Shown here one piece after another: positions 11,516 to 13,792 of a stretch of 64,000 nucleotides of DNA. The notes under the pieces are model-generated. The model saw only the letters and a program-made list of their open reading frames with translations, was not told the DNA's origin and ran no database searches. Origin of the DNA: Flavobacteriaceae bacterium PS02334 (GTDB taxonomy: Bacteria > Bacteroidota > Bacteroidia > Flavobacteriales > Flavobacteriaceae); contig JASCOH010000006.1 in assembly GCA_029959295.1 (NCBI GenBank), positions 293,637-357,636 of the forward strand, given 5' to 3'. A program made the position numbers and the translations under genes. Each line of letters begins with the position of its first letter. Positions within the stretch are counted from its first letter, which is position 1.

Positions 11516-11650
11516 AATTTTATTTTTTTGGAATCAGAAAATTTGTCGGAAAGGCTAAAGGAGAGTTTTTCTGCTTTAGCATTTTTACGATACCGAATTT
11601 TTCCAGTATCAGAGGTTGCAATCAGTACAAATTTTTCCTCTTCTTGATTT
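11516..11650 (-). promoter_or_regulatory. Structured 5' leader of metK
   Basis: On the minus strand the ~140-nt untranslated leader can form two hairpins: GATACTG / CGGTATC (about 11588-11608) and GCTAAAG / CTTTAGC (about 11554-11580). It does not match the SAM-I or SAM-II consensus that I know. Structure in this position suggests regulation but no mechanism is evident. Confidence 0.35.
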
Positions 11651-11686: not shown

Positions 11687-11794
11687 TTATTCTTAACTTT
11701 TTTTTCTTCTGAATGTTAAAATCCAAAAAAGTAAATACGTAGTATTTAAATATATATACCAAGCTTTCGAAATGTTAAAGTTTATTTTTTTTCA

Positions 11795-11824
11795 TTGCAA
11801 ATCCAAAAATAGTTCTGAAGTTTG
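11795..11824 (+). promoter_or_regulatory. Promoter of the Met/Cys leader transcript
   Basis: TTG (11795-11797), 19-nt spacer, GAAGTTTG (11817-11824; one mismatch to TAnnTTTG). The inferred start near 11831 is about 14 nt before the first leader ORF. Confidence 0.5.
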
Positions 11825-11844
11825 CACCATCAAAAAGTAACAAA

Positions 11845-11919
11845 ATGAAAACTATTATTTGTCATATGTACTGTAAGATGTGGAAAACTTCCGCAGAGTG
11901 TACTGTTGCCAAATTTTAA
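11845..11919 (+). CDS. Leader peptide 1, Met/Cys-rich (24 aa)
   Basis: 24 codons plus stop. Residues 5-13 read ICHMYCKMW: within eight codons there are two Cys and two Met, with another Cys at position 19. Near its end (11892-11898) lies CGCAGAG, which copies the 3' arm of the terminator at 11942-11970 and can pair with its 5' arm. The layout is that of a ribosome-mediated attenuator: stalling at Cys or Met codons frees this segment to form an antiterminator. Too short for most gene finders. Confidence 0.65.
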   Translation: MKTIICHMYCKMWKTSAECTVAKF

Positions 11920-11941
11920 TTTTTTAAAATATAGCAAAAAG

Positions 11942-11970
11942 CCTCTGCCGAAACGCAGAGGTTTTTTTTT
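11942..11970 (+). terminator. Attenuator terminator 1
   Basis: Hairpin CCTCTGC / GCAGAGG (11942-11961, loop CGAAAC) followed by nine T. It lies 22 nt after the stop of leader peptide 1, with no gene before the next leader. Confidence 0.85.
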
Positions 11971-11997
11971 GGAAATAAATCAAGAATTAAAAATACC

Positions 11998-12069
11998 AGA
12001 ATTGAAATTCTCTATTAACTAACTCAAACCATTTCAATTCTCCTCCTCAAAATTAATTTTTTGAGGAGG
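11998..12069. repeat. Two adjacent perfect hairpins between the leaders
   Basis: Hairpin A: AGAATTGAAAT (11998-12008) with ATTTCAATTCT (12031-12041). Hairpin B: CCTCCTCAAAA (12042-12052) with TTTTGAGGAGG (12059-12069), 6-nt loop. Hairpin B would hide a GAGGAGG element 17 nt before leader 2; that distance is long for a normal ribosome site. Role unknown. Confidence 0.7.
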
Positions 12070-12086
12070 TTAAAAAAAGATAAAAG

Positions 12087-12173
12087 ATGAATACAACAAT
12101 GATGATTTGCTGTAAAAAACAAATGTGGATTTATTGCCACTTGAAACTCTATTGCCAAAAGAAAACGACTTAA
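12087..12173 (+). CDS. Leader peptide 2, Met/Cys-rich (28 aa)
   Basis: 28 codons plus stop. Residues 5-14 read MMICCKKQMW, followed by Cys at 17 and 23; four Cys and four Met in total including the start. Near the end of the ORF, CCAAAAG (12155-12161) copies the 3' arm of the following terminator and can pair with its 5' arm CTTTTGG. No promoter was found between terminator 1 and this ORF, so it is probably read only by polymerase that passed the first attenuator. Confidence 0.7.
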   Translation: MNTTMMICCKKQMWIYCHLKLYCQKKTT

Positions 12174-12194
12174 TCTCTGTTTATATTCATGTGT

Positions 12195-12231
12195 AAAGTC
12201 CTTTTGGTAAGCCAGCCAAAAGGACTTTTTT
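12195..12231 (+). terminator. Attenuator terminator 2, ahead of the OsmC-like gene
   Basis: Hairpin AAAGTCCTTTTGG / CCAAAAGGACTTT with loop TAAGCCAG and a T tract, 22 nt after leader 2 and 46 nt before the OsmC-like start. A terminator inside a 5' untranslated region points to attenuation. Confidence 0.88.
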
Positions 12232-12276
12232 ATTTTATCTCAATACTCAATACTAATACTTCAAATACTAAAAATT

Positions 12277-12699
12277 ATGAAAGCTATAAATGTCTTAGGA
12301 TACTCAAGAAACAACGAACAGTTCGTTGTAAAAACTCAAAATGCTGATGTGAGAATCAGCAACAACGCCAGATTTCCAGAACTTGAAGGGCCAAATCCTT
12401 TTGAATATATCCTTGCAGGATTAGCAGGATGCATTAATGCCGTGGGCCAAAATGTGGCAGCAGAATTAGGCATTAATTTAAAATCTTTACAAGTAGAAAT
12501 CACAGGAACTGTCAGCCAAGAAGAGAGAATCGGCTTCAACAAAATTGAAATCATATTGAAACCGAGTACTGATGTTTCTCTGAAAGTACTTCAAACATGG
12601 TTGAAATTGGTACAGCAAAAATGCCCCATTTATGACAATTTAGTCAATCCAACGCCAGTCGAATTGATTTTGTTCAAAGAATATAATTATGCTGCCTAA
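12277..12699 (+). CDS. OsmC-family protein
   Basis: 140 residues, the usual size. The family's two reactive cysteines appear as C52 (LAGLAGCINAVG) and C116 (VQQKCPIYDN), the second also in its typical CP context. OsmC/Ohr-fold proteins are thiol peroxidases or sulfur-handling enzymes; in Bacteroidota OsmC-like genes often sit in methionine or sulfur operons. Here the gene follows two Met/Cys leader-peptide attenuators and precedes the methionine synthase genes, so a sulfur-metabolism role is more likely than osmotic stress. The start ATG lies 46 nt after the attenuator T tract. Confidence 0.85.
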   Translation: MKAINVLGYSRNNEQFVVKTQNADVRISNNARFPELEGPNPFEYILAGLAGCINAVGQNVAAELGINLKSLQVEITGTVSQEERIGFNKIEIILKPSTDVSLKVLQTWLKLVQQKCPIYDNLVNPTPVELILFKEYNYAA

Positions 12700-12755
12700 A
12701 GCATAAATCACAATATTGTTTAGTTTGTTTTATTGTTTGTTTGTTGAAAAGACTG

Positions 12756-12797
12756 CTTTTGATCGCCAGTCAAAAGCAGTTCTTTTTTATTTAGGCA
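12756..12797 (+). terminator. Intrinsic terminator between the OsmC-like and HSD-like genes
   Basis: ACTGCTTTTGA / TCAAAAGCAGT with loop TCGCCAG and a T-rich tail; flanking GAAAAG can extend the stem with a bulge. Its sequence resembles attenuator terminator 2 (CTTTTG, CCAG loop, CAAAAG), suggesting common origin. No leader ORF precedes it. Confidence 0.85.
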
Positions 12798-12858: not shown

Positions 12859-13386
12859 ATGTCAGCAAAAAAAATAAATATCATCCTCTTCGGAATCGAA
12901 ACCGTCGGAAGTTCCTTGATAAACCAAGTGCTTTCCAACCAAAATTCCTTCCTTTCAACTAAAAATCTAGAAGTAAGACTTCCAATAATCACCAATTCGA
13001 CAGTCGCTTTTTTCGAAAAACCAACTGTAAAAAATTCTTGGGAAGCTAATTTCATAAAATTCGGAATTCCCTTCAAAGTTGAAGACATCATCAATTTCGT
13101 CCAAGAAAACGAACTCGAAAACCTAATCGCAATCGACACCACAGAAACCGCGGATTTGCTTGTGGAATATTTCGAATTGCTTCAAAATGATTTCGATATC
13201 ATCAGTATAAATCCAACAATAGAAACACTTCCGGCAGATTTCGACGCATCAATAAACGCCAACTTAAAGAAATTCGGAAAAGATTTTTTCTTCATAAATC
13301 CAATAAAAAAAGATTCCATCTCAGAAACTATTCTGAAAAAAATCATTCAAATCGCTGAAAAGCCAGAATTAAAAATAGCAATATAA
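12859..13386 (+). CDS. Homoserine-dehydrogenase-like N-domain protein, degenerate
   Basis: 175 residues that look like only the NAD(P)-binding half of a homoserine dehydrogenase (start KKINIILFGIETVGSS, then PIITNSTVAFFEK and ENLIAIDTTETADLL). The dinucleotide-binding glycine motif is G12-I-E-T-V-G17: the middle Gly is replaced by Glu. The region where the true enzyme has its catalytic Lys after the sixth strand reads INPTIETL, without that Lys, and the whole substrate domain is missing. It is unlikely to be an active dehydrogenase. It may be a decayed paralogue or a regulatory remnant kept in the methionine cluster. Confidence 0.55.
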   Translation: MSAKKINIILFGIETVGSSLINQVLSNQNSFLSTKNLEVRLPIITNSTVAFFEKPTVKNSWEANFIKFGIPFKVEDIINFVQENELENLIAIDTTETADLLVEYFELLQNDFDIISINPTIETLPADFDASINANLKKFGKDFFFINPIKKDSISETILKKIIQIAEKPELKIAI

Positions 13387-13429: not shown

Positions 13430-13452
13430 CAGTGTTCATAAACATATTGACA

Positions 13453-13551
13453 GTTATCACGAAAGGCAGAGGGAATAGACCCGATGAAGCCTTAGCAACC
13501 CTTTAACTTAAAGAAGGTGCTACATTCTATCCGCATTGCGGAAAAGATAAC
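13453..13551 (+). promoter_or_regulatory. SAM-I (S-box) riboswitch
   Basis: P1 is closed by GTTATC (13453-13458) and GATAAC (13546-13551). Between them are the conserved S-box blocks: AGAGGGA, GACCCGATGAAGCC, GCAACC and AAGGTGCTA, then an internal hairpin (TCCGCATTGCGGA). The aptamer binds SAM and should repress metH-metH-metF when SAM is high. The expression platform is not obvious: 240 nt, including a repeat element with a poly-U hairpin, separate it from metH. Confidence 0.93.
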
Positions 13552-13617
13552 AAGCGAATAAAACTCCGGTTTTTCCTCACTTTCCTGACAACATATCGAT
13601 ATTTATAATTTTTTTTA

Positions 13618-13725
13618 GAAGCGAATGGTCGTTGCTTTTTCAGCAATCCATTTTCCCGCTTTCCGCTGCAATAAAAAAAATTCTAAAGAAGAATTTTTTT
13701 TGATTTCCGCTGCAATCGGGGCTAT
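13618..13725. repeat. Intergenic repeat element (copy b) in the metH leader
   Basis: Framed by GAAGCGAATGGTCG on the left and CCGCTGCAATCGGGGCTA on the right; CCGCTTTCCGCTGCAAT is found inside. The cargo is a hairpin of AATTCT / AGAATT flanked by runs of A and T (about 13673-13701), which looks like a small intrinsic terminator. Related to the elements at 7677 and 63275. Confidence 0.65.
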
Positions 13726-13792
13726 CTGAGAAAAGGTATTGAACTTTTGGTTTCAACAGAACCATTGCGTAACAATTAGTACCGAAAAAAAA

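Follow-up and report, generated by a model that had tools for sequence, protein, structure and literature searches.

A probable tandem pair of cysteine/methionine leader-peptide attenuators before an OsmC-like gene in a flavobacterium and before met and cys genes in its relatives

Results

Upstream of an OsmC-like gene in the 64,000-nt stretch of flavobacterial DNA that we analysed (the window, whose numbering is used throughout), two short open reading frames (ORFs) with cysteine and methionine codons are each followed by an intrinsic terminator. Judging from these sequences and their relatives, the two units probably form a tandem pair of ribosome-mediated transcription attenuators that would test twice for a shortage of Cys and Met. 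Two checkpoints in series are well supported in silico, by an anatomy that is conserved in relatives in a fixed order, with one promoter, matching codon content in the two leaders and covariation in the type-1 RNA.

Anatomy of the leader region

The leader pair lies on the forward strand between metK, its upstream neighbour on the reverse strand, and the OsmC-like gene. Its parts and the evidence for them are as follows.

11795-11824, + strand: promoter-like site, TTG at 11795, a 19-nt spacer and GAAGTTTG at 11817 (one mismatch to TAnnTTTG)
11845-11919, + strand: leader ORF 1, MKTIICHMYCKMWKTSAECTVAKF (ORF list and position check)
11882-11892, + strand: small hairpin GGAA/TTCC overlapping the Trp codon of leader 1 (RNA folding; per-site shuffle test)
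11893-11898, + strand: antiterminator segment 1 (GCAGAG), partner 11943-11948 (two-sided changes in 6 of 6 pairs)
11942-11970, + strand: intrinsic terminator 1, stem 11942-11961, T-run to 11970 (folding and terminator covariation test)
12087-12173, + strand: leader ORF 2, MNTTMMICCKKQMWIYCHLKLYCQKKTT (ORF list and position check)
12155-12161, + strand: antiterminator segment 2 (CCAAAAG), partner 12201-12207 (91.0% of cells paired, two-sided changes absent)
12195-12231, + strand: intrinsic terminator 2, stem 12195-12228, then a T-run (terminator scan, folding and covariation)
12277-12699, + strand: putative regulated gene, an OsmC-like protein of 140 aa (Pfam OsmC PF02566, E 3.1e-17)

The two leader ORFs, the two terminators and the copies of the terminator arms, which the initial annotation had placed before an OsmC-like gene, proved correct to the base when the positions were re-checked. 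The copies are CGCAGAG at 11892, of which GCAGAG is repeated at 11955 as the 3' arm of terminator 1, and CCAAAAG at 12155, whose second copy at 12216 is the 3' arm of terminator 2. In mononucleotide shuffles of each leader region (20000 trials), such a copy arose by chance in 1.1% of cases for leader 1 (6 nt) and 3.3% for leader 2 (7 nt), so that the single locus is modest evidence and conservation in relatives is what makes it solid. At the gathering score, Rfam 15 had neither a SAM riboswitch nor any other family at 11700-12300, and at E up to 10 it returned sub-threshold matches only.

A scan of 11700-12100 with the flavobacterial -7 consensus TAnnTTTG, taken from PMC9723704, found one site (one mismatch), which precedes leader 1; the stretch between the leaders has none, not even directly before 12087, where a separate promoter had been named as counter-evidence. 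The earlier observation that a promoter is seen only before the first leader was thereby borne out at the locus, and it extends to relatives: among 84 pairs the motif lies 5' of leader 1 in 72, where shuffles predict 11, and in the inter-leader region in 4, where they predict 2. These counts support two Met/Cys-coded attenuators in series behind one promoter. A generic sigma-70 scan of the locus, with 4 promoter-like sites against 5.7 expected, was uninformative.

Two distinct attenuator RNAs

Both leader RNAs can adopt alternative folds. Up to the 5' arm of its terminator, leader-1 RNA folds into the antiterminator (-19.6 kcal/mol), and when the 3' arm is added the terminator wins (-26.9); the corresponding values for leader 2 are -12.5 and -19.9 kcal/mol. 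Terminator 1 folds at -11.7 kcal/mol (z -4.1) and terminator 2 at -19.2 kcal/mol (z -6.3). In the first type of RNA (type 1), 93.5% of cells in the antiterminator are paired, covariation is 0.335 versus 0.180 in shuffles, and the terminator is 95.3% paired; the antiterminator covaries with the terminator, and the two are mutually exclusive structures. In the second type (type 2) the terminator covaries, and the antiterminator, with its zero two-sided changes, is too conserved for a covariation signal.

We built covariance models of the two types, R1 from 43 and R2 from 38 upstream regions. The RNA parts of both window attenuators score as intact (81.6 and 86.5 bits), and when the models are exchanged, R1 gives leader 2 only 19.8 bits and R2 gives leader 1 only 28.7 bits, in both cases no better than other window sites. 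These cross-model scores lend no support to a duplication of the leader, which had been proposed on account of a shared C-x(n)-MW motif, and neither does the Trp codon of leader 1, which overlaps the small hairpin. At 103 of 112 type-1 sites the hairpin scores no lower than the 95th percentile of shuffles, and the codon at that offset is TGG at 71 of the 112 and something else at 41 (CAG 15, CCG 8, TCG 6, GGG 5, others). As the Trp position is tied to the RNA hairpin, the MW motif is no evidence of duplicated leaders. The site-by-site test was adopted because a fixed-column covariation test was not supportive of the GGAA/TTCC hairpin, perhaps on account of two registers.

The nearest named OsmC locus is that of Flavobacterium macacae (90% OsmC identity). 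There, leader 1 keeps IICHMYCKMW with three nucleotide changes, all of them synonymous, which is a sign of selection on the leader-1 peptide. Terminator 2 is unchanged, and leader 2 keeps only KKQMW and YC, its first Met and Cys codons having been lost. Conservation of the Cys/Met codons, by which the earlier reading was to be judged, thus stands for leader 1 and fails in part for leader 2. Just 5' of leader 2, the window has an additional stable hairpin (12043-12068; -14.2 kcal/mol, z -5.2), which is partly kept in F. macacae.

Conservation and fixed order of the pair

Searching 101 genomes with R1 and R2 and taking the 150 best matches of each model, we found at least 63 same-strand pairs in at least 50 genomes, of which those at the loci used for model building are not independent. 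Among these best matches R1 always came before R2, with no pair reversed and none on opposite strands, and the gap between the modelled parts was 70-225 nt (median 106). Pairs were also found where the models had not been trained, with at least one in 16 of 20 regions unused for model building (L139-L144, L146, L148, L149, L151-L157). At E 0.01, type 1 was matched in 101 of 101 genomes and type 2 in 90 of 101, much of which is probably ordinary terminators; weak matches near 30 bits do sit at such sites. Across 148 genomes of the order, at E up to 1e-6, R1 was found in 10, all of the same genus (10 of its 11 genomes), and R2 in 9, of which 8 belong to that genus (8 of 11).

The order also holds for individual genes. 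OsmC homologues were found in 11 of 60 genomes, among them that of the window, and metY in 58 of 101 genomes of the group (E up to 1e-100), where it matches TIGR01326 above its cut-off. When upstream regions were sorted by terminator classes, which were chosen after looking at the data, type 1 followed by type 2 was read in 7 of 9 OsmC regions (type 1 only in 2; not counting L010 and L004, the latter with OsmC behind metY) and in 31 of 60 metY regions (type 2 only in 16, type 1 only in 11, neither in 2), and type 2 followed by type 1 in none of either. Among 52 named OsmC loci, the pair stands directly before OsmC in 29 and before metY-OsmC in 3, type 1 only in 5, type 2 only in 1 and nothing by the models in 14, two weak matches in otherwise complete loci having been added by hand (type 1 in L175, 36.6 bits; type 2 in L166, 32.1 bits). 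The series arrangement is real, is old within this group and has been reused.

Winogradskyella-like metY-OsmC loci lack matches to both models, and 12 of the 13 scanned lack Met/Cys-rich leaders. The exception among the 13, from a Bacteroidetes MAG (L207), has by eye two Cys/Met-coded leaders and two terminators upstream of metY. Among 8 metY genes of other genera in the family there was none with two such units; in a genome of another family (L245), two Met-coded leaders and two terminators are again seen by eye upstream of metY. Judging from L207 and L245, each with two unrelated terminators, the tandem layout may reach beyond this group. A DNA pattern on C-H-x-Y-x-x-M-W gave mostly chance matches, its reversed control being about as frequent, yet it pointed to the metY leaders.

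Genes behind the pairs

The genes behind the pairs in relatives include metY, metX, metH, OsmC and cysH. Twenty further regions put one or both attenuators before a gene, which in L147 and others was judged by the likeness of its first residues only. These genes include metH, a MetX-like gene in L141 (NCBIfam MetX E 3.3e-51, below the curated cut-off), a Cys/Met-metabolism PLP enzyme in L149 (PF01053), cysH in L149, where cysD and cysN follow it, cysH in L145 and cysE in L158. For the metY, metX, cystathionine-family, cysH and cysE genes of relatives, the pathway of the gene matches the control codons in front of it.

Several genomes carry two pairs, of which one precedes OsmC and the other metY (L176, L178), a MetX-like ORF (L177) or a MetX-like gene (L183, L185, L187), so that the whole pair seems to have been copied as a unit. 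In the window genome metY was not found, the best matches being 40-42% identical over part of the query. Some loci have an additional small ORF, roughly 55-65 aa long, that follows leader 2 and precedes metY (L060-L062, L072, L077 and L095) or OsmC (L005 and L006). In others metX is seemingly split over two frames or two ORFs (L139, L140, L148, L154-L157), the second half matching MetX in L148; a broken gene, a sequencing error and frameshifting are alternative explanations.

Codon content of the leaders

Codons were counted upstream of the antiterminator, in ORF position ranges chosen after looking at the data, and compared with the window proteins (Met 2.0%, Cys 0.6%). By this count, leaders 1 and 2 of the metY class contain 29 and 27% Met and 15 and 13% Cys, where 5 of 48 type-1 sites had no ORF in the position range and gave no peptide, and where the first pair of L177 was kept, though the ORF behind it is MetX-like by eye. 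Met rises to 37 and 32% in metX leaders and to 42 and 37% in metH leaders (one locus), and Cys to 30 and 24% in the leaders of cys genes (4 and 1 loci). OsmC leaders are more mixed, with 9 and 7% Cys, 11 and 9% Met and 5 and 5% His. Relative to the window proteins, their leader 2 is enriched 4.8-fold in Trp and 3.4-fold in His, and their leader 1 has 3.5-fold His and 0.3-fold Trp in the codons counted. A class labelled 'thrA', with a small ORF and a seemingly two-frame metX before a thrA-like gene, is better read as metX-thrA.

The Met excess is confined to the reading frame, the other frames having at most 4.3% (metY) and 5.1% (OsmC). The Cys excess over proteins is not frame-specific: another frame reaches 12.3% in metY leaders and 9.6% in OsmC leaders, where leader 2 has 7.4% in frame. 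The control part of metY and OsmC leaders has hardly any Asp, Glu or Gly. In all 8 genomes with both kinds of leader pair, Met is more frequent in the met-gene leaders than in the OsmC leaders, whether leader 1 or leader 2 is compared (the first pair of L177 serving as a met-gene pair). When the two leaders of each of 79 distinct pairs were compared, their contents of Met (r 0.87) and of Cys (r 0.71) were correlated, inside gene classes as well, at a level that none of 2000 permutations reached. As Lys, Asn and Phe are correlated too, relatedness contributes to these values. Trp content is uncorrelated between the leaders (r 0.08). The agreement in Met and Cys fits a series, AND-like read-out. 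We abandoned the hypothesis that OsmC leaders respond to residues prone to oxidation, because His and Trp are enriched but Tyr and Phe only 1.2- to 1.8-fold.

In the window, the last control codons 5' of the antiterminator segments are ATG at 11878, ahead of the segment at 11893, and TGC at 12135, ahead of that at 12155. Reckoning 12-15 nt from the P site of a stalled ribosome (PMC3641672), this spacing would be about what such a ribosome needs to leave the segments free. A further Cys codon, TGC at 12153, touches segment 2.

Proposed mechanism and alternative explanations

The likeliest function of the pair is to test twice for a shortage of sulfur amino acids. From the promoter before leader 1, one transcript would face two separate tests, and in each of them a ribosome would translate a short ORF rich in Cys/Met codons. 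With sufficient charged tRNA, the ribosome should cover the antiterminator segment and the terminator should form; were it to stall on the control codons 5' of the segment, the latter could pair with the 5' arm of the terminator and the polymerase would continue. OsmC (or metY, metX, metH and other genes in relatives) would be expressed only after both passes, so the read-through probabilities would multiply, with less leak and a wider and steeper response. Translation, stalling and termination in vivo are predicted here, as are the multiplied read-through and the steeper response that would follow from it.

A more far-reaching proposal, about which we are evenly divided, is that the pair is a reusable cassette. 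Its two leader-peptide attenuators, unrelated to each other and invariably with type 1 in front of type 2, would sense the same amino acids one after the other, and the two ribosome races would thereby amount to a multiplicative AND gate. This unit would have been copied whole to positions before new genes, both leaders then shifting their codons together to the new pathway (Met-rich for metX, Cys-rich for cysH, a Cys/Met/His/Trp mixture for OsmC).

Other readings have to be weighed against the double test. The two attenuators could each answer to a signal of its own, leader 1 mainly to Cys/Met, say, and the OsmC-class leader 2 to a wider set with Trp and His, which would make a two-input gate. 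The Trp and His enrichment of the OsmC leader 2, beside a leader 1 with similar His but little Trp in the codons counted, points in this direction, and the Salmonella mgtCBR leader offers a precedent with two signals (PMC3641672). However, Met and Cys content agrees pair by pair and moves together from gene to gene within a genome, and Trp shows no such agreement, which makes a two-input gate unlikely, if worth keeping in mind. It is rather improbable that, before OsmC in the window lineage, only one attenuator still works and the other is decaying: the first half of leader 2 does diverge from F. macacae, and OsmC leaders hold far less Met than metY leaders, but both RNA parts are intact by score and terminator 2 has not changed.

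We give very little credence to the notion that these are plain transcription terminators, or makers of small RNAs, beside chance ORFs. Ordinary terminators do attract weak model matches, but the in-frame Met excess, the position of the promoter, the covariation of leader segment with terminator arm and the fixed order all argue against it. Least credible is a relic left by the loss of a gene between the leaders. The initial annotation had offered this as an alternative and suggested looking in related species for an O-acetylhomoserine sulfhydrylase gene (metY) in that place. Single leaders before metY in 27 of 60 regions, and whole pairs before neighbouring genes in some clusters, would suit such a loss; the comparison instead put metY 3' of both leaders, the pairs (at least 63) are compact, with their gap of 70-225 nt, and the promoter motif is all but absent from the inter-leader regions (4 of 84). 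A double test for sulfur amino acid shortage remains the reading that we prefer.

Relation to known systems

Leader-peptide attenuation is textbook knowledge, but double switches like these are scarcely known from nature, hence the interest of the pair. Its closest precedent in the sources drawn on here is the mgtCBR leader of Salmonella with the ORFs mgtM and mgtP, which has been called a singular example of two attenuators in one leader (PMC3641672). As in the window, two short ORFs in one leader provide two attenuators in series before one operon. Unlike the window pair, mgtCBR responds to two signals (ATP and proline) in an additive manner and its stem-loops do not resemble intrinsic terminators (PMC3641672), whereas the flavobacterial pair has two intrinsic terminators, has Met/Cys codons in both leaders and occurs in many copies before different genes. 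Attenuators of the trp/his type, such as E. coli trp (PMC3641672), share the control codons, the antiterminator and the intrinsic terminator before a pathway gene, but make one test where two stand in series here. In the tandem SAM and coenzyme B12 riboswitches of Bacillus clausii metE, two terminators likewise stand in series before a methionine gene, but the RNA binds the two metabolites directly and a leader peptide is absent (PMC3641672).

Nearer to the window in taxonomy, leader-peptide attenuation upstream of amino acid operons has been described in Flavobacterium psychrophilum, of the same genus and with the same class of mechanism, among 64 structured 5' regions (PMC9723704); the parts of that report consulted here name neither sulfur metabolism genes nor a tandem pair. 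The uORFC-8-2 motif before cysS also combines Cys codons in a uORF with an intrinsic terminator, but it is single and precedes another gene, and flavobacteria are not named in the passages of the paper drawn on here (PMC8632094). Open-licence papers on leader-peptide attenuation in Flavobacterium, in tandem or with Met codons, gave in their consulted parts no description of the type-1 and type-2 pair. The pair adds two RNA motifs unmatched in Rfam 15 and, through its codons, a hint for each operon of a little-studied group at the sulfur amino acid to which that operon responds. It also comes in many natural copies, and related species can have one attenuator or two before the same gene, which makes it testable whether a second test of the same signal buys less leak, a steeper response or less noise.

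Neighbourhood of the window locus

The small met cluster of the window has three kinds of control, the Rfam matches around the leader pair being a SAM-II riboswitch before metK (11566-11646, - strand), a SAM-I riboswitch before metH (13451-13553, + strand) and a Flavo-1 RNA (13648-13727, - strand). A third intrinsic terminator lies 3' of OsmC (12751-12781), where R2 gives a weak match of 32 bits and a Cys-rich leader ORF is not seen. Further 3', an ORF of 175 aa (12859-13386) matches only the middle of a bifunctional aspartate kinase/homoserine dehydrogenase (model positions 462-605 of 819). ORFs of 173-178 aa stand 3' of OsmC in many named relatives (L159-L178), which suggests that a truncated homoserine dehydrogenase has been retained. 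Among 51 relatives, 39 have Cys and 12 have Ser at Cys52 of the OsmC-like protein itself, and 33 have Cys and 18 have Ser at Cys116; as neither residue is strictly conserved, a two-cysteine peroxidase role of this protein is doubtful.
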